Assembly: GCA_027002405.1 (NCBI GenBank) | Contig: JALWZT010000269.1 | Coordinates: 1-44,410 of the forward strand | Length of the DNA stretch: 44,410 nucleotides | Source of the DNA: Anaerolineae bacterium | GTDB lineage: Bacteria > Chloroflexota > Anaerolineae > J102 | Direction of reading: 5' to 3' | Shown here: in pieces, positions 17,063 through 44,410 of the stretch | Layout: each line of letters begins with the position of its first letter | Numbering within the stretch: position 1 is the first letter of the stretch | Notes under the pieces: model-generated | Seen by the model: the letters and a program-made list of their open reading frames with translations, nothing else | What the model was told of the DNA's origin: nothing | Databases searched by the model: none | Position numbers and translations under genes: made by a program

Positions 17063-18331
17063 ATGGAATCCGGCACCATCCATCACACCTGGACCTTGCC
17101 CGATGGCCGCTCGGTTCATCTTCGTCTGAATCACGAAGCCCTCACCCTGAGCATAGACATCCATTTGATTTACACCTTTGATCGGGCGGGGCGCTTGTAC
17201 GCGGTCTTTGATCATGGCGTGAATTATCGCCGTGGGCTGGATGGCCGTGTTCTGGCCCGCTGGCGCCAGCAACGGGGTCGGCGGACACGGCGTTGGCTTT
17301 CCCCCAGGGAAGTTGACGCGTTGTTGGTTCGGGCACGAGAAGATACGAGCCAGGTCCTGGATGCGTGGGAATCTTTGGAAACTGTTCCGGAGCCGATGAA
17401 GGGCCAGGTTGGGCAAGGGTTGCAACGGGCCGTGACCTTTGACGTGATTCAGGACGTCCGTCGGTTTCATCAAACCTATCTCCCCATCAGCATTCTGCCT
17501 CCGGACCAATACCAGGCTTTGGTGCTTCAGGCCACCGAAGGATGTTCTTTCAATACCTGCACTTTTTGTGCCCTTTATCGGGACCGCCCTTTTCGCATCA
17601 AATCCTTATCGGCCTTTCAAGCCCATGTGGCCGCGGTTTTGGACTTTTTTGGCCCGGGCGTTTCCATGCGTCGAGGCATCTTTCTAGCTGATGCCAACGC
17701 GTTGATCATCCCCCAACATCGTCTGTTGCCCCTGATGACCTTCATCCATCAGACCTTTTCCCTCTTGCCCGAGCATCTTTCCTCGCGCGAGCGTCGGGCC
17801 CGGATGGCGCAAGACCCTCTGGCCAAAACCGGGGTCTATGCTTTTGTGGATGGCCTCAGCGCGGAGCGCAAAGCGGTGAGCGATTGGGAAGCCTTACGGG
17901 GCTTGGGGCTACGCCGTGTGTACATTGGCCTGGAAAGCGGGCATGAGCCCTTGCTGGCATGGCTGCGTAAGCCCAGCACCGCGGCCGAGATGGTGGATGC
18001 AGTCAGGCGGATGAAGAGAGCGGGTTTGCATGTGGGAGTGATTGTCATGCTGGGGGTAGGGGGCCACCGATTTGACGCGGGGCATGTACGCGACACCGCG
18101 GCCGCATTGAATGCCATGCCTCTGGATGGGGATGACATCATCTACCTCAGCCCGTTCCAGCCTGATCCCATCGCGCCTTACTTAAGCCTGGCCCGGGCTG
18201 AGGGGGTGGATCTCCCTACGGATGCGTTCATGCAAGCCCAACGTCAACGCATCCTGGCCCGGCTCACCCTTCCCCCGCCACCTGCGGGCCCCAAGCGCGT
18301 GCCGTATAATTTGATGGATTTTGTGTATTGA
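17063..18331 (+). CDS. radical SAM protein with CX4CX2C cluster motif
   Basis: LQATEGCSFNTCTFCALYRDRPFRIK; YIGLESGHEPLLAWLRKP. Confidence 0.85.
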   Translation: MESGTIHHTWTLPDGRSVHLRLNHEALTLSIDIHLIYTFDRAGRLYAVFDHGVNYRRGLDGRVLARWRQQRGRRTRRWLSPREVDALLVRAREDTSQVLDAWESLETVPEPMKGQVGQGLQRAVTFDVIQDVRRFHQTYLPISILPPDQYQALVLQATEGCSFNTCTFCALYRDRPFRIKSLSAFQAHVAAVLDFFGPGVSMRRGIFLADANALIIPQHRLLPLMTFIHQTFSLLPEHLSSRERRARMAQDPLAKTGVYAFVDGLSAERKAVSDWEALRGLGLRRVYIGLESGHEPLLAWLRKPSTAAEMVDAVRRMKRAGLHVGVIVMLGVGGHRFDAGHVRDTAAALNAMPLDGDDIIYLSPFQPDPIAPYLSLARAEGVDLPTDAFMQAQRQRILARLTLPPPPAGPKRVPYNLMDFVY

Positions 18332-25316: not shown

Positions 25317-27431
25317 ATGGAAGCCCCACGCGTCTTATGGCGTCGTGGTTTCAACCTGGTGCGTCTTATGGCGCATACCGATGATGAAATCGAGGTCTTT
25401 ATGGATCATTCCATGGAACAAATCGCGGTTTTTATTGATTTTGAAAATATCGCCCGATGGGCAGAAGAGGTTTTCCTGGATTTTGAACTAACCCCAGTCA
25501 TCGAGTACCTGCAAAGCCGTGGGGCCCTGGTCATTAAACGGGCGTATGGGGATTGGAGCCGATTCGCCCATTATCGGGATGAGATGATGGATAATGCGTT
25601 TGATCTCATCCAGATGTACAGCATCCGCGCGGGCAAAAACCGGGCGGATATCCGCATGGCCATGGATGCGTTGGAGATCGCGATGACCCGGCCCCACATT
25701 CGCACCTTTGTCATCATCTCGGGCGATAGCGATTTCGGAGCTTTGGCCAGCAAATTGCGGGAATATGGCAAATACACGTTGGGGATCGGCCCGCGCCAGA
25801 TCACCCACCGGCTGCTGGTTAAATCGTGTGATGAATTCATCTATCTGGAAACCCTGCTGGATGAAAACGCGCTGGTCAGCGAACAGGCGGCCATGGATAT
25901 GGAAGTGGGACGCACCTTGTTGCGGCGGGCTTTGCGGGCCCTGGGGCAGCGGGGCGAATCCCCTGTGGAAGCCCCTCGCCTGCGCCAGGTGATGATTTCG
26001 ATGGATCCTACCTTTAATGAGGCCAATTTCGGTTTTGCGCAATTCAAAGATTGGCTGGCCGCGAATACCGATCTGGTGACGCTCCATGAACAGGATTTCC
26101 GGGTCTACGTCGCGCTCAAGGAGCCGATGCCCACATCCCCTTTGAATACCCCGCCGACTCCTGAAAAGGCTGCTGCTGTCACGTCGAGCGTGAGCCAGAC
26201 TCAGGAGTTGGCCCATCAGTACCGGCAGATTTTTTCCCGGCTAAAGATGGCCGCGGCGGATTTCGCCACCCGGCGGGATGTCTTGCGGGATATCTATCGA
26301 GAACTCAGCGAGCATCCCGGGGAATATACCACCGATAGTTTGCTGGAAGCCTTGCGGGAACGCTACGAACGGCAGGGGTTTGGTCGCAGCAAAACCCTGC
26401 TCCGGCACATCTGGCAGATGGGATTTCGGCAGCGTGCCTTTGATTATGGGGATCAATCGGCCTCGGTGCGCGCGCCCGTGTGGCTGGCGCCCGATATCGA
26501 TAGCGAATCCGCGTTTGTGCGTCGGGCCGAGTCTGGGTTCATTTATGCCGTGATCCACGCCGGTCTGGAAATCAACCTGGAAGAATTGGCGGCCATTCTG
26601 GTCAATGATCGGGACCAGGCCGATTACATCCAAACCCTGCTCCATGAACTCGAAGCCCGAGGGCTTATTGTGCAAGAAAACGGGCGGTATCGTCTGCCCG
26701 GCCGCTCTGATATCCCCTTCTGCGATCACCCCGTGCTGCGCCCGATCTGTCAGGAGATCGAGCATGTCCAATTGCCGGAAAACGTGCCCATCAGCCCGGA
26801 AAAGGCCTTCACCCTGGCCAAACGGGCCATGATTCAACGTTCGCAGGATTTCGCGGCCTCCGCGCGTAGCTATCTCTATGCATGCCGCATTCAATGGCAA
26901 TCGGTCCTGAAGCAAATTCCGGGAGCCAATCTGGAGGATTTGCGTTGGCTCATCGCGTCCTACGCGTCGGTGCGGGCGGGGGAGCTTTCGCAGGTGGATA
27001 AGGATTATGAGCGTTCTCGGGCGTATTACCTGGCCTTTTTCCTTTTGGTTCAGGAAGAAGACCCCTTGTGGAGTCGCATGCGTGGCCTTATCAACCCCAT
27101 GTTGGTGTACTATTGGGCCAACGCGGGGCGAGAACTGGGGGTGGACGTGTCTTCCTGGAATTTGAGCGCGGCCCTGCCCGCGCAGGTAGCCATGCACGCG
27201 GTCACCCACGAAAACCCTGAGTTGGTCAAACGGTGGCGGGAACGCACTCGGGCGCTGGCTCAGGTGAACCCGGGGGTGCTCCAGCGGGTGGTGGAACAAA
27301 TTCGCCACAATTACCCCGACCAGCCCGCGTATCTTCTGGCCGCGGATGAAATTCAGCGGCTGCTGCAGGAGACAGGCGAGAGGCACACCAACCTGCCGAC
27401 TGAAGTCAGCCTTTTGAGTCCCTCGGGCTGA
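25317..27431 (+). CDS. NYN (LabA-like PIN) domain protein with OST-HTH/LOTUS-like domain and long C-terminal region; start uncertain (25317, 25368 or 25401)
   Basis: IAVFIDFENIARWAEE, RADIRMAMDALEIAM, FVIISGDSDFGALASKLREYGKYTLGIG; LRQVMISMDPTFNEANFGFAQFKDWLA. Confidence 0.85.
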   Translation: MEAPRVLWRRGFNLVRLMAHTDDEIEVFMDHSMEQIAVFIDFENIARWAEEVFLDFELTPVIEYLQSRGALVIKRAYGDWSRFAHYRDEMMDNAFDLIQMYSIRAGKNRADIRMAMDALEIAMTRPHIRTFVIISGDSDFGALASKLREYGKYTLGIGPRQITHRLLVKSCDEFIYLETLLDENALVSEQAAMDMEVGRTLLRRALRALGQRGESPVEAPRLRQVMISMDPTFNEANFGFAQFKDWLAANTDLVTLHEQDFRVYVALKEPMPTSPLNTPPTPEKAAAVTSSVSQTQELAHQYRQIFSRLKMAAADFATRRDVLRDIYRELSEHPGEYTTDSLLEALRERYERQGFGRSKTLLRHIWQMGFRQRAFDYGDQSASVRAPVWLAPDIDSESAFVRRAESGFIYAVIHAGLEINLEELAAILVNDRDQADYIQTLLHELEARGLIVQENGRYRLPGRSDIPFCDHPVLRPICQEIEHVQLPENVPISPEKAFTLAKRAMIQRSQDFAASARSYLYACRIQWQSVLKQIPGANLEDLRWLIASYASVRAGELSQVDKDYERSRAYYLAFFLLVQEEDPLWSRMRGLINPMLVYYWANAGRELGVDVSSWNLSAALPAQVAMHAVTHENPELVKRWRERTRALAQVNPGVLQRVVEQIRHNYPDQPAYLLAADEIQRLLQETGERHTNLPTEVSLLSPSG

Positions 27432-33691: not shown

Positions 33692-33757
33692 AAGGCTGTC
33701 CCGTAAATAGAGTAATCAGTGAACAGTGATCAGTAATGGCTTTCCTGAAAAAACCTT

Positions 33758-33864
33758 AACCACGGAGACACAGAGAGCACGGAGAGGGAAAAAGACAAGG
33801 TTTGGAGAGGATTTTCTCCGTGAACCCCCTTTATTTTTCTCTGTGTCCTCCGTGTCTCCGTGTT
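33758..33864. repeat. fold-back element with possible target-site duplication
   Basis: AACCACGGAGACACAGAGAGCACGGAG...CTCCGTGTCTCCGTGTT; flanks GAAAAAACCTT (33747-33757) and GAAAAACCTT (33865-33874). Confidence 0.7.
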
Positions 33865-33995
33865 GAAAAACCTTTTTGCAGTGGAGCCAGTAATCAGTGG
33901 GAATCTGCGCTGTATCTGCGCAAATCTGCGTTTTATTTTCGTCGTGATGTGGTGAGCTATTGCTCATGGTGACTGTTCCGAAAATAGAGCCTCGC

Positions 33996-34110
33996 GACGT
34001 CATTCCGAGGGAGCGAAGCGACCGAGGAATCTAGCGAAGCGCAAAAACCACGGCATGGCGCTCGCTTCGCTCGCTAGATGCTTCGCTCCCTCCGGTCGCT
34101 CAGCATGACG
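33996..34110. repeat. palindromic GTCATTCCGAGGGAGCGAAGC...CATGACG intergenic element
   Basis: Same as 6597-6756 (with small internal insertion), 7984-8098 and, inverted, 22200-22314 and 23554-23667. Confidence 0.88.
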
Positions 34111-34401: not shown

Positions 34402-34681
34402 GGGGGTATCATACCGGTTCGGGCGGGAATGGTCAAGGTGGAGAGGTAGGCGACTTTGGCGCGCTTCATTCAGACCTCGGAGGTCTCATGCCGGGCGCCA
34501 GAGAAGCCGCTACCGCCCTTGACGCGTCATATTGGAATTGCCGTATGGGAAGGAATTGAGGAAAAAAGGTAAACGTTGGGAGTTTGCCGTTATGTCTGGA
34601 AGTGTGTACAATAGGCTTGCAAGGCACTCATGCTCGCTTGTCTCGTTATCGACAAGTTTCCTTCATCATAGGGTAGGACTC

Positions 34682-37018
34682 ATGGCGTCAGATGATCGTT
34701 CAAATCACAATCGCGATGAACAAAATTGGGGCGAAGCAATTGGGGAACGTTATCTTTCGGGATTGGTTAATGGAATAAAGGTGTTCATTTGGGTAGGCGC
34801 GGTATTTTTGGGCGTAGGCGTGTTTGGGTATGGGGTGTGTGCGGTTAGGCCACAGAGCGATCTCATTCAATTGGTGATCGGAATCCTGGCCGTGACGCTG
34901 CTCCTGGGCTATTTTGCCCTGCTGATGCAAATTGGAAATGCCGATCTAATGCCTTACAACTTCGTCGTCCTAGGGAGTGCATTGGCCGTAACGTCGATGT
35001 TGGTTCGCGGCTTCGGCGGGCCTCCGCTGTTCGTTGACATAGGGAACGCTTCCGAAGAGGTGCGGGCGTGTCGGGTGCAGATGACGCAGACATGGTTTGG
35101 GGATTTGGGGCTGGTGTGGGCGGTGGCATCTTTCCTTGTGGGCGGGGCATGGCGATATTTCGAAGAGAAAAAACAACGCAGATATGCAGAAATCAAAGAA
35201 CAGATGAGCAGGATCGAGCAAACGAGCTTGTCTCGCCCACTGTTTGCTGCTACTGAATGGGCTCTCTTTACGGGAAAATTAACTTCAGAAGAACAGAAAA
35301 TGTTTATGGGAATCATTGAGAGAGTCAGAGAACGCTATTTTGAAAACTGGACACACGCGATCTTATCGAGAATTGACTGGTTATTGTTTAGCGGGGCGAG
35401 TTTGGATGAGGGTGAAATCCAGACGTTTGTGGATCTGCTAATCTCGATAAATACACCTGCTTCCATGGGTGCCCAAATGTATGAAGCCCAAGTCGATGCG
35501 GCAGGCAATGAAGCAAGCCGGGCCCAAGGGCACTGGGTAAAAATAAAAACGTTGATGAATTGGCACAAGTTAGAAGGGGACCACCGCGGATCACGACTCG
35601 AAGAAAGTAGGAAATCACGGGAAAAGGTGCTGGAGGGAGTCTTGGATAGCGTTCTTTGGATGTGGCGCGAGTATGATGTATTGGCGCGCGAATGGGTTGT
35701 AGCACTGATAGAAAAATGGCTAACTGACTTTCCGGAAGAACGAGAAGAAACGAAAGACGCCATATCGGATCTTCATCATACTCGTCGTTTGACCAGACAC
35801 ACACAAATTCGTGCACTATTTCCTGATCTCTATATCTCCCCCACGTACGATTTTCAATCACCCTGGCCTGTTCAACCTCCGAATTGTCTATCCAGGAATG
35901 TGCAACGTTGGCTAGAAGAACGTTGGCTAGAAGGGAGGAGGAAGAGGAGGAAGAGGAAGAATCCCTTTGGCATGGCCCGGGCGGAATGGGAGGAGGTTAC
36001 AACGGACGATGTTTATTATCCTGACAACGGGCGTCTCATTGAGCGCATGATGGAAGATGCCATGCTTTGGATTGTTGCTCCTCCAGGCAGTGGTCGCACA
36101 AAGCTGGCACAGATCGCATATTCCCACTTAACGCAATCGGAAAAAACTGTTGTTCCAATTTACATGATGTTGGATATCTCTGAGGAGGCGGCCATATCCC
36201 GATATCTGTTGGAACAACTACTCCATCATTTGGTTGTGATGTGGGGCGGCATATTGTTGCAGCGAATTGAGAAGAAAACGACACAAAATAAACATCCATT
36301 CAACGGTCCCATCGCTTTCCTGGATTTAGATTATCATGAACAACGCAAGGTGGCTCAACTGTTTTTCTGGGAAATGGGTTCGTTGGAGGCCATTTGGACC
36401 TGGCTGACGGCGCTTGGCGTGGATTTGGCTGGAACGATTGAGAGGAAGGCATTAAAGGCCAGATTGGAGTTTCTCTTGAGAGATCCTCCACCACAAACGC
36501 TTCCCGAAAGCTGGATGATGGACCTGGCCTCCGCCCGCCCCGTGGGTTTGTCATCCACGTTTGTGCTGTTAGAATTGAACAATACTATTTCCCAAGATCA
36601 GGCTCTCCGTGTAATGTCAGCTGCCGAAAGGTTGCAACAAGAAAAAATCTATTTGAAAATTATTGCTTCACAACAGTCTCCTGCGGTGTGCCTCCAAACG
36701 CAATTGTTCTGGACAGAAAAGGATCTCAGGGCGATGCTCGACAAGCGTGACATCAGCGGAATTATGGATAGTGGGGCTAAAGAGGCCCTGGCGAAATTCA
36801 TTCACGCCTATGCCAACAGCTCTCCTCGCGAAATGATGCGTTTAGGGAGTATAGCGTTGGCGCTACGAGCCGAAAGGGATGCCGAAAAGGACGATGAAAA
36901 ACCGGACAAAGAGGCTGACCTTCTCCCCATGGCGCCCACTGAGGAAAAGGTACTGACTGAGGAAGACATCAAGGAAGCAATACAAGTATACAAGATTTTT
37001 CGATTCCATAAGCCTTGA
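34682..37018 (+). CDS. multi-TM protein with C-terminal degenerate P-loop NTPase-like domain (start at ATG 34682; track start 34532 is TTG)
   Basis: About four hydrophobic segments (VFIWVGAVFLGVGVFGYGVCAV, LIQLVIGILAVTLLLGYFALLM, YNFVVLGSALAVTSMLV, LVWAVASFLVGGAW); MLWIVAPPGSGRTKLAQIAYSHL. Confidence 0.7.
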   Translation: MASDDRSNHNRDEQNWGEAIGERYLSGLVNGIKVFIWVGAVFLGVGVFGYGVCAVRPQSDLIQLVIGILAVTLLLGYFALLMQIGNADLMPYNFVVLGSALAVTSMLVRGFGGPPLFVDIGNASEEVRACRVQMTQTWFGDLGLVWAVASFLVGGAWRYFEEKKQRRYAEIKEQMSRIEQTSLSRPLFAATEWALFTGKLTSEEQKMFMGIIERVRERYFENWTHAILSRIDWLLFSGASLDEGEIQTFVDLLISINTPASMGAQMYEAQVDAAGNEASRAQGHWVKIKTLMNWHKLEGDHRGSRLEESRKSREKVLEGVLDSVLWMWREYDVLAREWVVALIEKWLTDFPEEREETKDAISDLHHTRRLTRHTQIRALFPDLYISPTYDFQSPWPVQPPNCLSRNVQRWLEERWLEGRRKRRKRKNPFGMARAEWEEVTTDDVYYPDNGRLIERMMEDAMLWIVAPPGSGRTKLAQIAYSHLTQSEKTVVPIYMMLDISEEAAISRYLLEQLLHHLVVMWGGILLQRIEKKTTQNKHPFNGPIAFLDLDYHEQRKVAQLFFWEMGSLEAIWTWLTALGVDLAGTIERKALKARLEFLLRDPPPQTLPESWMMDLASARPVGLSSTFVLLELNNTISQDQALRVMSAAERLQQEKIYLKIIASQQSPAVCLQTQLFWTEKDLRAMLDKRDISGIMDSGAKEALAKFIHAYANSSPREMMRLGSIALALRAERDAEKDDEKPDKEADLLPMAPTEEKVLTEEDIKEAIQVYKIFRFHKP

Positions 37019-37132
37019 GTAACATAGCAACCTTCATTGCCGGAACATGCAAGTGACATGACATCCCATGATGCGCCATTTTCGATTAAAAAAACGGAGT
37101 CACACACCATGCACAGAGAGGAGAAATAAGTA

Positions 37133-38539
37133 ATGGCTGATCATGATCTCCGGATTGAGTCCAACTGGGTTGTGTTGCCCGAGCAATTTGATGAAGCGCT
37201 TTTTGTCGGTCGCAAGAAAGAAGTCAGACGCGTCGGAGAAAAAGTCAAACGCTTACAAAATGGTGAAATTATCAAGACCCGGACCATGCGCATCTCGGGC
37301 GAGCGGGGCGTGGGCAAAACCTGGCTTTCGCTCAGATTACATCATGACTTTCGGAAGAAGAACGGGGTTCGCTCGATTTACATTGATTGCGACCAACCTA
37401 TTGGTTCTTCCCAGCCTCTTTCTGCAGGAAATCTGGAATTCCGGGTGGAAGCATTTAACTATCGAGGCCTGTTGGAACTTCTAGTATCACTATCAAAAAA
37501 AATAGGCGCTCTCGTTCCAGTAGAAACCTCAGTTCAGGAACAATCGGGTTGGCTGATTAACAAGCTCACTGCAAGTGATCAGGTGTTAGTTTTATTCCTG
37601 GATGGACTTTTTTCTGTAAATCCCGACTTCGTGTCCTTATTAGAGAATTATTTGCTCGTTCCCTTGCTCTCCTATCCCAAAACCCTTATCGTCATGACCG
37701 GACGCGGTCGGGCGCCCTCATTTATCAATTATTATCTCAATAATGCCGTTATTGAAATCAAATTGGGGCCATTTGAGAAGAAAGAATTAGAAGAATTTTT
37801 TGATCGATTAGCAAAACAAAGTCAATACCGGAGAATAGGAACCCAAGGACAGACCGAACTCGACGAAATCTATCGCGCCAGCGGCGGTTATCCCCGCACC
37901 GCACTCTTGTTGGCAAAGGAGGGTGTAGCGCAAGGGATTGAAAAGGCCGTGAATGCCCTGTTGGGGTTCATTGAAGACGAAATGCAACGGGATGAAATTC
38001 GCCGGCATCTCGAAGCCTTGGTTTTGTTAAACCGTTGGGATCCTGAGTTGCCAGAGGAGGTTGAGTGGGGCATGCGGGATTCCGATTCCCTACTGTTCCT
38101 CAACGCGTATCATTTCTTTGTTCAAACAAAGAGCGATCTTTTGCAACAGGAGCTTGCTCCAGAACACCTGGAGGCGCTTTATGAGGCATTTCAGGAATGG
38201 AAGGGGAAAAAGAACAAATCCTATTTGCGAAAGGTGCGTCAGGAATTGCAAGAACTGCAACTGCTGCGTTGGGAGACGATTCAGGGAGGGAAGCAAGAAG
38301 TACGCGGTTATTTTATCGACGAGGCCATCCGTTATCCCGTCGCCTACGCGCTCTGGCAAAACAACCGAGGGCTTTGGCAATGGCTCCATTTCATGGGACG
38401 GAAACTGTTTGACAGGTGGGCGGAAGTCGATCCTGATCGCTACAAGCCATTGGCTGAAGCCCATGCTAAAGCGATTCCATGGTCGAGAGAAACCAAGCCA
38501 TCCGAAAACTTTGAGCAACCAGGAAGGAGTTCGTCATGA
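37133..38539 (+). CDS. STAND-like P-loop ATPase
   Basis: EALFVGRKKEVRRVGEKV; Walker A ISGERGVGKTWLSLRL; Walker B VLVLFLDGL; sensor TLIVMTGRGR. Confidence 0.8.
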   Translation: MADHDLRIESNWVVLPEQFDEALFVGRKKEVRRVGEKVKRLQNGEIIKTRTMRISGERGVGKTWLSLRLHHDFRKKNGVRSIYIDCDQPIGSSQPLSAGNLEFRVEAFNYRGLLELLVSLSKKIGALVPVETSVQEQSGWLINKLTASDQVLVLFLDGLFSVNPDFVSLLENYLLVPLLSYPKTLIVMTGRGRAPSFINYYLNNAVIEIKLGPFEKKELEEFFDRLAKQSQYRRIGTQGQTELDEIYRASGGYPRTALLLAKEGVAQGIEKAVNALLGFIEDEMQRDEIRRHLEALVLLNRWDPELPEEVEWGMRDSDSLLFLNAYHFFVQTKSDLLQQELAPEHLEALYEAFQEWKGKKNKSYLRKVRQELQELQLLRWETIQGGKQEVRGYFIDEAIRYPVAYALWQNNRGLWQWLHFMGRKLFDRWAEVDPDRYKPLAEAHAKAIPWSRETKPSENFEQPGRSSS

Positions 38540-41500
38540 TCAAAAGCGATATCACGTCGGGCTTGACCAGCCATTTCACCAGCATGTTCGCTTTGCCCTA
38601 TGTAGTCGGAAGAGATGAGGAGCTTGAGACAATCAAAAAAGCATTTGAAGCAGAGAGCCCCCCGCGAGCCTTTTTTATTCTGGGTGAGGGCGGCGTAGGG
38701 AAGACGCGGCTGTTGAGGGCCGCGTTGAAGGTGTTGCGAGAGGAGTTGTGGGAAGATGCGTATGTGGCGGAGAGGGAGGTTGATCTGTATCACACCTTCA
38801 CTCATACCCCCTACGGACTGGCCGACGCCCTGTATCAGGCTGCTTCCTTTTTGGCAGAAACCCGGCTCCAGGAAGTGATGGCACAATTGCAGGGGTTGTG
38901 GGCTGCAGGGGTCGCGGGCGAAAGCGCCAAATTGAGAGAAGAGCATCTCGCGCTCTTTGAATACATGCTGGCGAAAGCCTGTGAGGACCGCCCGGTCATC
39001 TTCGCCCTGGATACCGCGGAACGGTGGGTGTACACATGGATGGGAGAAAAATTCCCCCTACAGCACGTAGCCGACGCATGGGATTGGCTGGGCGATCTGA
39101 TGGCGAAATACGACAATCTGTACTTCATCATCTCCGGTCGCCCTTCCGCAGAGACGTTATGGGAAGATCTGGCGTCAAGACAGGTGACTCGCGAAAGGCT
39201 GGATCTGGGCCCGCTCAACGAAGATGGGGTTTTGGCGTATTTCGATGCCATTCGGGAGATTGCCAGGGAATATCTCGATGACAAGGATGAAAACAAACGA
39301 AGGGATGCAGAAAGAATCCTTCATCAGCTCGATAACGACAATTTTCCGGAAGAGGAACGCAGAAATATAGCAACATGGACCGGAGGTCGCCCCATCCGGC
39401 TTTCGCTGGTGATCGATTTCCTGCTCATGGGCGGCAGTATAGAGGAAATTCTGCGAATCCAAAGCTCGACTGATCCACGCGATTGGGAAGCGATCTACTT
39501 CGAATATCTCGCCAACCGTCATCCGGTCATTTTCGACACGATCCAGGCCTTGGCCCGGTTGCCCAAGGGAGCGACGCCGGAGTTGCTGGCGCGAATTATG
39601 GAATGCGAGGAGCATGAAGCAAAAGAGAGGCTGGAGGCCGTTGAGCGTTACACCTTCACCAAAAAATTGATAACTCCCCGAGATGAAGTGCGTTACTTCC
39701 ACCACGATGAGCTCTACAACTTGCTGAGCGATATACTCCATGAGGATCCGGGTGAACAAGCCCGCGTTGCAGAGATACTCGAGCGCTATTATAAAGACCG
39801 GATCAAAGCTTTACAGAAAGAAATCACTCACGCATTCTTCCAGGTGGAAGAGGTGGGGGATATCTGGTGTCCCGATAGGGAGGAGATGGGGGAACATTAT
39901 CTCACGCGTCACGCCTTAATGACAGAAGATATCTATTACGTTTTGCGAAATGACGTTGAACGGGGTTTGCGATCTCATTTCCGTTATACTCGCAATGCCG
40001 ACCTGACTGGCGACGTAGCGCTGGATCTCGCCCTGCAAGCCGAGATGCTGAATTTTTTCAATGAACCTGGCGCTCCGAAAGTTGACGAGAATTTGCAGAA
40101 AACCATTTATGGCATGTTGGCCATGCGGCCGGTGGTACGGGCCTGGGTGGAAGAGCAGTATGCAAAAGTCATAGAACTGGCTGAAAAACTTCGAAGCGAA
40201 AAGCAATTCATCGACGATAAACAGAATTGCGCTATCCTGGATGTGTGGGAAGCGTATGCCCATATCATGATTGGGGAGAACCTAGATCAAGCAGCGAAAC
40301 TCCTGGCGCATGCCATCGACGAAACTCAATCATTCGAAAAGCGAGATATCCAGGGGAACTTTACTATTTGGCGCGGTAAAGCCATCCTGGCGTTTGCACT
40401 GCGGGTGCAGGGCTATTTGCGAGACAATCAGGGACAATTGGATGACGCCATCCGGGATTATCGCCGGGCCGTGAAGTTGTGGCGGGAAGTCAACCTGTTG
40501 ATGGAGGTTGCGACAACGACAAAAGACCTGGCTTTCAATCTGGGCCGGATAGGGCGCTACGCGGAAGCGGAAGACCTGGCGAACTATGCCTTGGAAATCT
40601 ACCGCCAATTAGGCGCGCCGGGCTTGAATGCCTTAAGCCTCAGCGCCTTCGCTATGATTTATACCGAGGAGCGGCATTATCAGGCCGCCCGAGAGATGGC
40701 GCAACGGGCGCTGAACATCAACAAATGCATTCAGTTTACGCGCGGCCTCGGGCTGGCCGCCCTGGCGGTTTCCGAGGCGACGCGTCTTCATGCCGCGACC
40801 TCCTCTCTTCTCTCCGATGCCGACAGGTTCCAACGCCTGCAGTTGGCCCAACGCTTCGCCCAGCAGGCATTGGAGAAACTCGAGCAGGTCAATGATCGTT
40901 GGTATCGCATCAAGGCACTCATTGAGATCGGTTGCGTTCTCCGAGACAAGGTTCGATACTGTTGTCCCGAGCCCCACCGCAGACCGTGTGAGTGTGACAC
41001 ACGTAGAGTCATGCAGTTCGGTCGGGAGAGCGAGAAGTGGTTGACAATGGCCGTACAGGAGGCGGAGGCATCCGGCGCTTATCGCGTCCTCCTGGCCGAC
41101 GCCCTTGTCAACATCGCCTGGCTCGGGTATTACGCCCATAATGAGGAACTGATTCGTAAAGCGGAAACATCCTTCCTGGAAAAGTTCGCTGAGTTCTTTC
41201 ATTCAGACGCCGGCGTGCCTAACCTGTCTGACAGTGACATAGTCACTGGCGCCGAGAACAAGTCGATCTGGCAATTCATCGGTAAACTGCATGTCATGAA
41301 GGGCGCACTGGCGTATCGAAAATATGAGACGACGGGGGCGGAAGAAGCTTTGGAGGAAACGGGACGGTTGTATACCCAGGCGCTGCAATACAGCACCGTG
41401 CGAGGGGACAATTACGGCGCCCTTCTGGTGGGCAAGCAGTTCATCTTCAATCAACTAAAAACCCTAAACGTTCCACAATTGAAGTCTGTGAGTCGGGGAG

Positions 41501-41622
41501 TGAAGCATGCTGAACAGGAATTCGGATGGCACAATGAGCAAGGGCAAGGCAGTTCGGTCATGAGGCAATTCCTGGAAGACCGTTCTCTCTGGTACGAGGA
41601 GGATGAAAATGGCGGCGATTGA
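38536..41622 (+). CDS. STAND/NLR-like ATPase with TPR-type C-terminal repeats
   Basis: VVGRDEELETIKKAF; Walker A LGEGGVGKTRLLRAAL; Walker B PVIFALDTAE; LYFIISGRPSAE; TPR-like helices YAEAEDLANYALEIYRQLG, YQAAREMAQRALNIN; 4-bp ATGA overlap with upstream gene. Confidence 0.83.
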   Translation: MIKSDITSGLTSHFTSMFALPYVVGRDEELETIKKAFEAESPPRAFFILGEGGVGKTRLLRAALKVLREELWEDAYVAEREVDLYHTFTHTPYGLADALYQAASFLAETRLQEVMAQLQGLWAAGVAGESAKLREEHLALFEYMLAKACEDRPVIFALDTAERWVYTWMGEKFPLQHVADAWDWLGDLMAKYDNLYFIISGRPSAETLWEDLASRQVTRERLDLGPLNEDGVLAYFDAIREIAREYLDDKDENKRRDAERILHQLDNDNFPEEERRNIATWTGGRPIRLSLVIDFLLMGGSIEEILRIQSSTDPRDWEAIYFEYLANRHPVIFDTIQALARLPKGATPELLARIMECEEHEAKERLEAVERYTFTKKLITPRDEVRYFHHDELYNLLSDILHEDPGEQARVAEILERYYKDRIKALQKEITHAFFQVEEVGDIWCPDREEMGEHYLTRHALMTEDIYYVLRNDVERGLRSHFRYTRNADLTGDVALDLALQAEMLNFFNEPGAPKVDENLQKTIYGMLAMRPVVRAWVEEQYAKVIELAEKLRSEKQFIDDKQNCAILDVWEAYAHIMIGENLDQAAKLLAHAIDETQSFEKRDIQGNFTIWRGKAILAFALRVQGYLRDNQGQLDDAIRDYRRAVKLWREVNLLMEVATTTKDLAFNLGRIGRYAEAEDLANYALEIYRQLGAPGLNALSLSAFAMIYTEERHYQAAREMAQRALNINKCIQFTRGLGLAALAVSEATRLHAATSSLLSDADRFQRLQLAQRFAQQALEKLEQVNDRWYRIKALIEIGCVLRDKVRYCCPEPHRRPCECDTRRVMQFGRESEKWLTMAVQEAEASGAYRVLLADALVNIAWLGYYAHNEELIRKAETSFLEKFAEFFHSDAGVPNLSDSDIVTGAENKSIWQFIGKLHVMKGALAYRKYETTGAEEALEETGRLYTQALQYSTVRGDNYGALLVGKQFIFNQLKTLNVPQLKSVSRGVKHAEQEFGWHNEQGQGSSVMRQFLEDRSLWYEEDENGGD

Positions 41623-43063
41623 GCAACTCCGCATCCTCTACGCCCGGCCCGACCACTGGGCCACCGATCACTGCGCCTGCGCGGTGGATGGGCACGCGTT
41701 CTCGCCCGCGCTGGCCGCGCCGCCGACCGCGCCCTGGCGACAGGCGCCCGGGCTGCATCGCGCCTCCTTGCCCCAAGACCACGCACTGCTTTTCGATCCC
41801 CAGGGGGATGCAGGCGTTGTCGTCCTCAACCGGCCCGCGTTCGACCTCTTCCAGGCCTATCGCCAACCCCAGCCGCTCCGCTCCGCATACGCCCGCCAAC
41901 TGGCCCGGCTCCAACTCCTCCAGCCCGCGGACCATGGATCGCCGCGACCCGCTCCCCACCGCCGTCCCGAAATCCTCACCGCCTGGCTGCACATCACCAA
42001 CGCCTGCAACCTGGCCTGCACCTACTGCTTCGTGCGCAAGGACCAGGCGCACATGAGCGAAGAAGTCGGCCTGGAAGCCGTGGACGCGGTTTTCCGCTCC
42101 GCCCGGGCCGATGGCTTCCGCGCGGTCAAGCTCAAATACGCAGGGGGCGAAGCCACCCTCAACTTCCCCCTCGTGCGCACCCTGCACCAGCGCGCCCGGC
42201 AACTGAGCGAGATGACGGGCGTCGGGCTCCAGGAAGTCCTCCTCAGCAATGGCATCGCCCTCACCCCCGCCATGCTCGACTTCATCCGCGAGGCCGAAAT
42301 GACCCTCTCCATCTCGTTGGATGGCTTGAGCGAAGGGCATAATTCCCAGCGCGTGTTCCTCAACGGCGCGGGCAGCGCCGGGCATGTGCGCAGGGGCATT
42401 GATCGGGCCATTGCCCACGGCGTGCACCCCCATCTTTCCATCACCATCACCGCGCACAATGTGGCCTCCCTGCCCGAGACCGTGGCTTTCGCCCTGGAGC
42501 GCGGGCTCTACTTCAACCTGAATTTCTATCAGGAACACGCGCCCGGGCGCTCTCACGAGGCGTTGAAAGCGGAGAACGACCAACTTATCCAGGGCATCCT
42601 GGCCGCTTTGGCCGTCATCGAAGGGAATTTGCCCCCCTACAACGTGTTCACCTCCCTCCTGGATCGCACGAATCTGGCCGGGGCCCACACCCGGGCCTGC
42701 GGCGCGGGCGATAGCTATCTCGTTATCGACCATCGAGGGCGAGTTGCCCGCTGCCAGATGGAGATGGACAATCCGATCACCGACGTTCGCACTCGCCATC
42801 CCCTGGCGGAAATCCGCCTGTTCCAACCGGGCGAGGGGCAGCCCATCTTTCTGGATGTGGATGAGAAGGCGGCATGCGCGACGTGCCCCTGGCGATACGT
42901 GTGCGGCGGCGGCTGCACCCTGATGACCTATCGCGCGCGCGGGCGGGCCGACGCGAGATCGCCCTACTGCCAGGTATATCAGACCATTCTGCCCGAAATC
43001 GTGCGGCTGGAAGGATTGCGGTTGTTAAAATGGGCGGCAGATCCCACTCCACAGCTTATGTGA
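41603..43063 (+). CDS. radical SAM/SPASM domain protein (peptide-maturase type)
   Basis: TAWLHITNACNLACTYCFVRKDQ; KLKYAGGEATLNFPL; SPASM ACGAGDSYLVIDHRGRVARCQMEMD...CATCPWRYVCGGGCTLMTYRARGRADARSPYCQVY; 20-bp overlap with upstream gene. Confidence 0.92.
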   Translation: MKMAAIEQLRILYARPDHWATDHCACAVDGHAFSPALAAPPTAPWRQAPGLHRASLPQDHALLFDPQGDAGVVVLNRPAFDLFQAYRQPQPLRSAYARQLARLQLLQPADHGSPRPAPHRRPEILTAWLHITNACNLACTYCFVRKDQAHMSEEVGLEAVDAVFRSARADGFRAVKLKYAGGEATLNFPLVRTLHQRARQLSEMTGVGLQEVLLSNGIALTPAMLDFIREAEMTLSISLDGLSEGHNSQRVFLNGAGSAGHVRRGIDRAIAHGVHPHLSITITAHNVASLPETVAFALERGLYFNLNFYQEHAPGRSHEALKAENDQLIQGILAALAVIEGNLPPYNVFTSLLDRTNLAGAHTRACGAGDSYLVIDHRGRVARCQMEMDNPITDVRTRHPLAEIRLFQPGEGQPIFLDVDEKAACATCPWRYVCGGGCTLMTYRARGRADARSPYCQVYQTILPEIVRLEGLRLLKWAADPTPQLM

Positions 43064-43163
43064 GAAAGTCGTGAGCTTTACGTGAGCTCATAATGGCAGG
43101 GATTAAGAGAAATTTTGAGGTTCCACAAGGGATTTTCTAAGTGAAGGGCTGGTGATCTCTGGT

Positions 43164-43169
43164 TATAAT
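43164..43169 (+). promoter_or_regulatory. candidate -10 box (TATAAT) upstream of the Band7-like gene
   Basis: Perfect TATAAT about 40 bp before the start codon; no convincing -35. Confidence 0.35.
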
Positions 43170-43209
43170 GGGGGCGAACAGGATAAAGATACCGCACTTT
43201 TGTGGAGGC

Positions 43210-43926
43210 ATGATGAACCGCTCCCTTTCCCAACATATTTCCCATTATCTTTACGGAATAACCGTTCCTCCTGATTACGTTGTGCTGGTCCTGAACAATG
43301 GCAATCCTCAACGATTGGTTGGACCTGGCCAGGCCCAGTTACGATCGATCTGGGAATCCTTCGGCCCTTTCATCTATGTGGGGCCAAGACCCTTTAGCCT
43401 TTTGTTGGAAAATGTTCGGTCGAAGGATGGTATTCCCTTTCAGGTTCGAGTTAGTGGTTATTTTCGGTTCGATCCTCGGAATGCCGCGAGAAACCAAGCG
43501 TTGATTCTTGCCTACCGTTACGGCTATTTTCCCCCTGCACTCAAGGATCGGGTGGCATTTATTGCAGAAGGAGCGGTGCGCTCTGTATTGGGTCACTACA
43601 ATGCCGAAACATTGTGCAAGGGAGAAATTTATCGCACCGCATACTCCGGCCGCATTGTTTCTGTAACCCATCGAGAAGCCCTGATCGAGGGCATTCGATT
43701 CGAACGGGTGCTCACCGTCGCCCAACCTCCTGCTTCTTATGAAATGTTGATGCAATACACACGACTCAATGAAAAGGCGTTGGCAATCTATAAGGACATG
43801 GAAAAAATCAAGGCTTTGACCAACGCTAACATCCAAATCACCCAACTCTTCATGGATGATGGCGTCAAAGAATTTCTTTCTCAACTTGCGAATTCCCTTT
43901 CTTTTCCTCGAGTTAAACTGAACTGA
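43210..43926 (+). CDS. SPFH/Band 7-like protein (start 43210 or 43213, after GGAGG)
   Basis: YGITVPPDYVVLVLNNGNPQRLVGPGQAQL...SKDGIPFQVRVSGYFRFDPRNAAR...VAFIAEGAVRSVLGHYNAETL. Confidence 0.65.
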   Translation: MMNRSLSQHISHYLYGITVPPDYVVLVLNNGNPQRLVGPGQAQLRSIWESFGPFIYVGPRPFSLLLENVRSKDGIPFQVRVSGYFRFDPRNAARNQALILAYRYGYFPPALKDRVAFIAEGAVRSVLGHYNAETLCKGEIYRTAYSGRIVSVTHREALIEGIRFERVLTVAQPPASYEMLMQYTRLNEKALAIYKDMEKIKALTNANIQITQLFMDDGVKEFLSQLANSLSFPRVKLN

Positions 43927-43955
43927 TCCCACATTTGCGTTTACAGGAGGTACTT

Positions 43956-44030
43956 GTGAAAATTCAATCTTCCTCTACAATGCCCTACACTATTCGTTCT
44001 CCGCCGTTTTTGATCTCACCGCCATATTGA
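43956..44030 (+). CDS. small ORF, 24 codons, candidate peptide precursor
   Basis: GTG start 5 nt after AGGAGG; translation VKIQSSSTMPYTIRSPPFLISPPY*; follows the Band7-like stop by 30 bp on the same strand. Confidence 0.5.
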   Translation: MKIQSSSTMPYTIRSPPFLISPPY

Positions 44031-44039
44031 TCCACGAAT

Positions 44040-44115
44040 CCACGATAATCCCAATCCCAATCCTAATCCTAATCCTAATCCTAATCCTAATCCTGATCCT
44101 AGTCCTAATCCTGTT
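44040..44115. repeat. AATCCT hexamer array (GGATTA on the other strand)
   Basis: aatcccaatcccaatcctaatcctaatcctaatcctaatcctaatcctgatcctagtcctaatcctg. Confidence 0.9.
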
Positions 44116-44410
44116 TCTTCAACATAGGCGCGCCGCTGGCCCGGCGTTCGGCCATCCAGCCTTGACGGCCGCTCCAGTCCACATACCACCAGATCAACCC
44201 ATCGGCCAACGTAGGGCCGTAGAGAACCCTGACCCGGGCCCCTGTCGGCACCAACGCGATGCGATCACTAACCGGTTTGTTCTGGTATCCAGGGGTTTTG
44301 CGTAGATTGACCGGGCCGTCGTTGACGTTGACCGCCATGTCCCCAGGTTGGAAGGTCCATTGCCCGGGCACGGGCGTGGGCAGACCGGGGGGCAGGTTGA
44401 CGGTGGGAGG
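44105..44410 (-). CDS. C-terminal part of an SH3-domain (SH3b-type) protein, truncated by the window end
   Basis: Frame open to the edge: PPTVNLPPGLPTPVPGQWTFQPGDMAVNVNDGPVNLRKTPGYQNKPVSDRIALVPTGARVRVLYGPTLADGLIWWYVDWSGRQGWM. Confidence 0.7.
   Translation of the reverse strand, partial: PPTVNLPPGLPTPVPGQWTFQPGDMAVNVNDGPVNLRKTPGYQNKPVSDRIALVPTGARVRVLYGPTLADGLIWWYVDWSGRQGWMAERRASGAPMLKKQD

Follow-up and report, generated by a model that had tools for sequence, protein, structure and literature searches.

A Chloroflexota STAND ATPase module around a radical SAM maturase that may carry its own substrate

What might a peptide maturase act upon when no precursor gene travels with it, and why would it lie beside STAND-type ATPases? 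Both questions are raised by a locus on contig JALWZT010000269.1 of an Anaerolineae bacterium (Chloroflexota; assembly GCA_027002405.1), of which we analysed a stretch of 44,410 nucleotides (the window). At positions 34682-44030, the list of open reading frames (ORFs) places five genes, P1 to P5, and an ORF of 24 codons in a single run on the plus strand, with all six elements in the order that an earlier note on this DNA had given. We read this run as a Chloroflexota NLR-like (STAND) signalling module around a radical S-adenosylmethionine (SAM) maturase that carries its own substrate, and give this reading about an even chance of being right. The pairing of the genes, their domain make-up, the motifs in the maturase tail, the membrane-associated partners and the mosaic divergence of the operon are established at the level of sequence.

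The maturase and its STAND-TPR neighbour

P4 (41609-43063, + strand) combines a RiPP recognition element (RRE; RiPP, ribosomally synthesized and post-translationally modified peptide) with radical SAM and SPASM domains, behind a precursor-like N-terminal extension. It matches the Pfam Radical_SAM model (E = 2.5e-14), and its best NCBIfam match is PapB (NF047865; E = 4e-34), at 118.2 bits against a cut-off of 340. The CX3CX2C motif and seven SPASM cysteines are invariant across 40 aligned homologues. In the AlphaFold2 (AF2) model of P4, whose confidence score (pLDDT) was 88.7 and later 91.4, the region ahead of the radical SAM core is predicted to form a winged-helix domain (residues 43-106; 41735-41926, + strand) with an RRE-like order of elements. 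The closest solved structure is that of CteB (PDB 5wgg; fold E = 1.2e-19 over 469 columns; profile E = 6e-43), at 18-19% identity. P4 thus has the CX3CX2C motif, the seven-Cys SPASM domain and the RRE of RiPP-type radical SAM/SPASM enzymes.

Immediately upstream, P3 (38536-41622, + strand; 1028 residues) is a STAND-type ATPase with a Walker A motif and tetratricopeptide repeats (TPRs), matching AAA_16 above its cut-off (E = 7e-14) and TPR_12 (E = 5e-13). Its start overlaps the end of P2 in an ATGA (38536-38539), and an ATG at 41603 gives a 20-bp overlap with the maturase gene (41603-41622), both as the earlier note had described; its suggestion that the overlapping STAND, STAND-TPR and radical SAM genes are probably translationally coupled is supported. 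The P4 start is probably the downstream ATG at 41609, a few nucleotides past GAGGAGG, which leaves an overlap of 14 bp and a protein of 484 residues.

We then asked how widely this pair is kept. Of the 396 genomes of the class, 72 have a homologue of the radical SAM protein (E ≤ 1e-25), across 48 of 222 genera, with a patchy distribution that includes only one of eight other genomes of the window's genus. Together with the window, 60 neighbourhoods from within the class and 31 from the phylum outside it made up the 92 loci compared, P3-type neighbours being assigned by iterated profiles. A P3-type protein adjoins the radical SAM protein in 55 of the 61 class loci, window counted, and in all 31 elsewhere in the phylum, across several Chloroflexota families. 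Conversely, the radical SAM gene is present in 17 of 18 genomes that carry the STAND-TPR family (E ≤ 1e-60). The earlier note had staked its proposal beforehand on this synteny, and the attempt to refute it fails because 86 of the 92 loci have the two genes side by side. Four of the six loci that have no adjacent P3 call stop at a contig edge close upstream; a fifth (L042) has a STAND protein of 1103 residues, scored as P2, and the sixth (L050) is a genuine exception, with no STAND-TPR gene beside the radical SAM gene. Among the 86, six loci (L123-L128) keep the pair with the STAND-TPR and STAND genes on the opposite strand, convergent to the radical SAM gene rather than upstream of it; the pairing is therefore not merely operon polarity.

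Downstream of the maturase, the partners are Band-7 proteins in the window, L043 and L045, and transmembrane (TM)/coiled-coil or small TM proteins elsewhere. In the window this partner is P5 (43213-43926, + strand), which scores 31.5 bits against the Band_7 cut-off of 23.6 (E = 2.2e-7) and so belongs to the SPFH/Band-7 proteins. A longer ORF opens at 43168; the start is probably the ATG at 43213, which is preceded by GGAGG and coincides with the onset of conserved homology, giving 237 residues rather than 252. Taken together, the comparisons support the view of a membrane-linked STAND/STAND-TPR and radical SAM/SPASM module that is conserved as a unit.

The loci also vary around this pair. A divergent TM protein of 58-75 residues lies upstream of the radical SAM gene in L123, L124 and L126, and a gene of GNAT acetyltransferase type stands between the STAND-TPR and radical SAM genes in L046, L077, L079, L082, L084 and L092 (by Pfam on L077). 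In L052, a single radical SAM gene, with four repeats in the tail of its product, is flanked by two STAND-TPR genes. Beyond Chloroflexota, searches of plasmids, phages and viral contigs gave no case of carriage: phages had no match, plasmids just generic radical SAM proteins at 28%, and viral contigs generic ones at 22-31%.

The N-terminal tail as candidate substrate

In nearly all members, an extension of about 40-100 residues precedes the RRE. It opens with a short hydrophobic strand (consensus P-x-[IV]-[IL]-[LYW]), followed by [D/E]-C-A-C-x-[D/E] motifs (E-x-D-C-A-C-x-[D/E] in the consensus) and then by the RRE, radical SAM core and SPASM domain. The window tail, MAAIEQLRILYARPDHWATDHCACAVDGH, holds a leader-like strand, ILY, at maturase residues 9-11 (41633-41641, + strand) and a core-like motif, H-C-A-C-A-V-D, at residues 21-27 (41669-41689, + strand), which is the window version of [D/E]CACx[D/E]. 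Each tail has one to five copies of the motif, clearly in tandem in some, as in L052 (GENDCYAPDAPVRF / GEDDCFAPDAPVQF).

These motifs are strongly concentrated in the maturase. A [DEN]C motif is found in 82 of 88 N-terminal extensions, as against 2 of 69 and 4 of 82 N-termini of neighbouring STAND proteins, and Cys makes up 5.7% of the tails versus 0.7% of the TPR proteins. Of 180 cases, 129 have an acidic residue directly before the first Cys (-1), where shuffled sequences give 26.8 ± 4.8, and 59 have one at +4, where they give 22.4 ± 4.1. When 64 genomes were scanned for DCACx[DE], nearly all of the matches listed that fell in credible genes were at the maturase's own N-terminus; outlying DCAC matches in DNA, among those listed, were mostly out-of-frame fragments. 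With full N-termini in the alignment, AF2 gave residues 1-10 a confidence of 79 instead of 46 and placed a strand at residues 9-11, and the block that holds the motif (residues 21-30) had the lowest confidence of the N-terminus, 62.

Of the characterized enzymes, CteB binds its leader on the RRE in the form of a beta-strand (PMC8326336), and PapB forms links from Cys to Asp/Glu within CX3D, tolerating n = 0-6 (PMC9413430). From the sequence pattern we infer that the maturase here has leader and core built into its own chain, which points to its Cys/Asp tail as the substrate. Such a fusion would explain why no shared precursor gene turned up.

The search for a separate precursor took in the 24-codon ORF (43956-44030, + strand), which has a GTG start and a perfect AGGAGG Shine-Dalgarno sequence. 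Its product is VKIQSSSTMPYTIRSPPFLISPPY, ending SPPY, and its counterpart in the one close relative, G013, is MKMHASSVMPYTIRSPPF. The last ten codons shared by the two (MPYTIRSPPF) differ by two synonymous changes only. Outside this core the codon differences are mostly replacements, and a 1-nt indel puts the C-terminus in a different frame; coding selection on the ORF is thus not proven. Among the 396 class genomes just two have it, that of the window and one relative. A comparison, between related loci, of short ORFs with Shine-Dalgarno support revealed none that was universal among the 92, so the earlier idea that the 24-codon ORF is the precursor of the system was not borne out. The small genes that recur are those for small TM proteins, a family of 73-82 residues (L036, L042, L045), and SWIM-like and GNAT genes.

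Other candidates were set aside. The SPPF/SPPY ending is scattered without pattern in other loci, small upstream ORFs in L047 and L048 resemble helix-turn-helix regulators, and tandem ORFs in L128 resemble repeat DNA. Peptides with WWxxxIxAPxP are confined to L036, L045 and L082, where small proteins downstream of the radical SAM gene share W-[WF]-x3-I-x-A-P-x-P and two of them have TM segments.

NTPase genes and mosaic divergence

P1 (34682-37018, + strand) has a hydrophobic N-terminus and a TM region at about residues 30-155, followed by a cytosolic P-loop NTPase with a weak Pfam match to NPHP3_N (E = 8.8e-5). Its Walker A sequence, PGSGRT, is non-canonical, with Arg for Lys, and is the same in G013. 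Upstream lies a promoter-like TTGCCG-N17-TACAAT (34584-34612, + strand) whose sequence is kept in G013; the P1 upstream region aligns closely with positions 1-185 of L004. P2 (37133-38539, + strand) matches AAA_16, ATPase_2 and NACHT-like models of Pfam and NCBIfam, every one under its curated cut-off; its Walker A (GERGVGKTW) and GGxP motifs identify it as STAND-type, and its Walker residues are invariant in an alignment with full-length homologues from 13 other loci. A P2-like ORF precedes P3 in most loci, and in many of them other tandem P-loop proteins lie ahead of P2, one type ending in an OmpR-type winged helix (for example, L035_4). In one locus, L078, the protein in the P1 position has an N-terminal caspase (Peptidase_C14) domain.

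These genes have not diverged together. Against a synonymous divergence (dS) of 0.84 for rpoB between the window's genome and G013, dS is 0.14 for the radical SAM gene (93% amino-acid identity), 0.28 for the 24-codon ORF and 0.47 for the Band-7 gene, and is saturated or nearly so for P2 (44%) and P3 (55%). P1 is itself divided: most of residues 26-150 are conserved, at 64-100% identity per 25-residue block, after which identity falls abruptly, the remainder lying at 12-64%. The spacer between the radical SAM and Band-7 genes cannot be aligned, homology then spanning the Band-7 gene to about 11 bp past the stop of the 24-codon ORF, and the G013 locus has two extra NTPase genes that the window lacks.

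A radical SAM dS below 1 with a TPR-gene dS above 2 or saturated recurs in L070 with L071, in L043 and L089 with L053, and in L035 with L040 and L091; the Chloroflexia-type pairs tested mostly show the genes diverging together. Conserved ends around a saturated NTPase centre fit an exchange of sensor cassettes, and this pattern in the sequences suggests that STAND cassettes have been exchanged between conserved operon ends. Rates alone leave the direction unproven, and it may be the conserved ends that moved instead.

Proposed mechanism, alternatives and related systems

How might such a module work? The N-terminal strand would dock on the RRE of its own chain (in cis) or of an adjacent copy and present the tail motifs to the active site, which would install Cys-to-Asp/Glu thioethers of the PapB/CteB kind or Cys-based crosslinks of another type. 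Whether attached or released, the modified tail would be the ligand, or the guarded state, to which the STAND-TPR protein responds; upon a change of state, the STAND proteins would assemble and act via membrane partners (in the window, the TM protein P1 and the Band-7 protein), and the output would probably be defence or a stress response. Self-modification, tail sensing, membrane execution and defence are thus parts that we infer. The fuller version, in which the maturase crosslinks its own Cys/Asp tail, the STAND-TPR protein reads the crosslink state and lineages swap the STAND cassette between the conserved ends (promoter-TM segment and maturase-Band7), is possible but doubtful.

If self-modification holds, it would be a cis-acting radical SAM RiPP architecture; the literature searched (subscription literature lay outside its scope) described no system of this kind and no radical SAM maturase fused to a precursor. 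It would also be an undescribed link of peptide chemistry to an immune-like switch, and the coupling to STAND-TPR receptors would give a concrete, testable tie between peptide crosslinking and bacterial NLR-type sensing, within a phylum of which few immune systems have been studied. Conserved ends with a variable centre would amount to a natural experiment on bacterial sensor diversification.

Several observations weigh against the tail as substrate. The window tail has a single motif copy with His before the Cys, its acids are spaced Cx2D/Cx4D rather than CX3D, and many motif copies elsewhere have no acid at +4. Motifs are sparse in some Chloroflexia members (DCR, ECR) and absent from L041 and L140. 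Part of the AF2 rise at the N-terminus may come from a deeper alignment, and the model coordinates were not used to find what the strand pairs with. Cys-to-Asp/Glu crosslinking is suggested by motif enrichment and a defence role by analogy, and no protease shared by the loci was identified. In the aligned set, which was chosen to contain Cys, one Cys is invariant, and a metal ligand would fit this too. The motif might then serve the maturase as an additional metal site or as a redox switch (Fe-S or Zn ligand), with the real substrate elsewhere, as would suit the conservation of at least one Cys in almost all members and the several clusters that SPASM-type enzymes hold. We consider this unlikely: tail Cys number from one to eight with variable spacing and tandem repetition, their acidic context is far over shuffled expectation, and the motif segment is the least confidently modelled part of the N-terminus.

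The substrate might also act in trans, as the 24-codon ORF in the window and, elsewhere, as the diverse small proteins, often of membrane type, encoded next to the radical SAM gene, with the STAND proteins sensing or controlling the peptide. The ORF has its perfect Shine-Dalgarno sequence and near-unchanged MPYTIRSPPF codons, it is conserved in G013 while the radical SAM-Band-7 spacer is not, and small TM ORFs with Shine-Dalgarno sequences recur near the radical SAM gene in many loci. This is quite unlikely given the two genomes that have the ORF, the doubt over its coding selection, the lack of a motif shared by the small ORFs and the several loci that have none. An improbable further account is a RiPP natural-product cluster in which the STAND-TPR protein is an AfsR/MalT-like pathway regulator with no role in defence or conflict. 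The TPR region matches AfsR by profile, and the P-loop proteins with OmpR-type winged helices and the interposed GNAT genes agree with it; multiple tandem STAND/P-loop genes, caspase and Band-7 partners and recurrent exchange of sensor genes fit conflict systems better, and the recurrent neighbour clusters show no transporter or export module.

The closest described kind is that of the actinobacterial FxSxx-COOH/FxsB systems, in which a radical SAM/SPASM peptide maturase is tied to a STAND-type ATPase with TPRs and a conflict function has been proposed. The FxSxx type, described with an AP-ATPase-TPR protein, is linked there to VMAP/vWA-MoxR ternary systems, a zincin peptidase and a separate FxSxx precursor (Kaur et al. 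2020, PMC7159879). The earlier note's parallel with them was right in kind, a STAND/AP-ATPase with TPRs adjoining the maturase here too, and did not extend to membership: P4 scores 55.4 bits against the TIGR04269 (FxsB) cut-off of 370, no precursor ending FxSxx was seen among the window short ORFs inspected, and VMAP/vWA-MoxR and zincin domains are absent from the scanned window genes, the rest of the genome not having been searched for them. PapB, the best match over the radical SAM and SPASM domains, has a Cys-X3-Asp/Glu logic that resembles the tail motifs, and CteB, a SCIFF maturase, shares the N-terminal RRE; unlike the candidate substrate fused to P4, PapA and CteA are separate precursors. 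P3 weakly matches the HaaT-type TPR partner of a cyclophane RiPP radical SAM enzyme (NF041717), at 19.8 bits against a cut-off of 1125. PADLOC matched no defence-system model, giving just weak generic P-loop/TPR and viperin-like radical SAM matches. Borosin precursors are fused to their methyltransferase, with the core at the C-terminus; they too join a modifying enzyme to its own core peptide, but differ in enzyme class, chemistry and position of the core.

The genome that contains the contig is 4.3 Mb, and the other scanned genes of the window are those of ordinary metabolism, with no defence island. Among them, a second radical SAM gene (17063-18331) apparently has no relation to the operon, and a 704-residue NYN-domain protein is encoded at 25317-27431; L076 also has an NYN gene, downstream of its radical SAM gene. 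A (TAATCC)n hexanucleotide array (44046-44118) lies immediately 3' of the 24-codon ORF. Just 5' of the operon, positions 33756-34110 hold interspersed inverted repeats with arms of 40 and 39 nt and a direct repeat of 74 nt, and G013 has similar sequence near its own locus.

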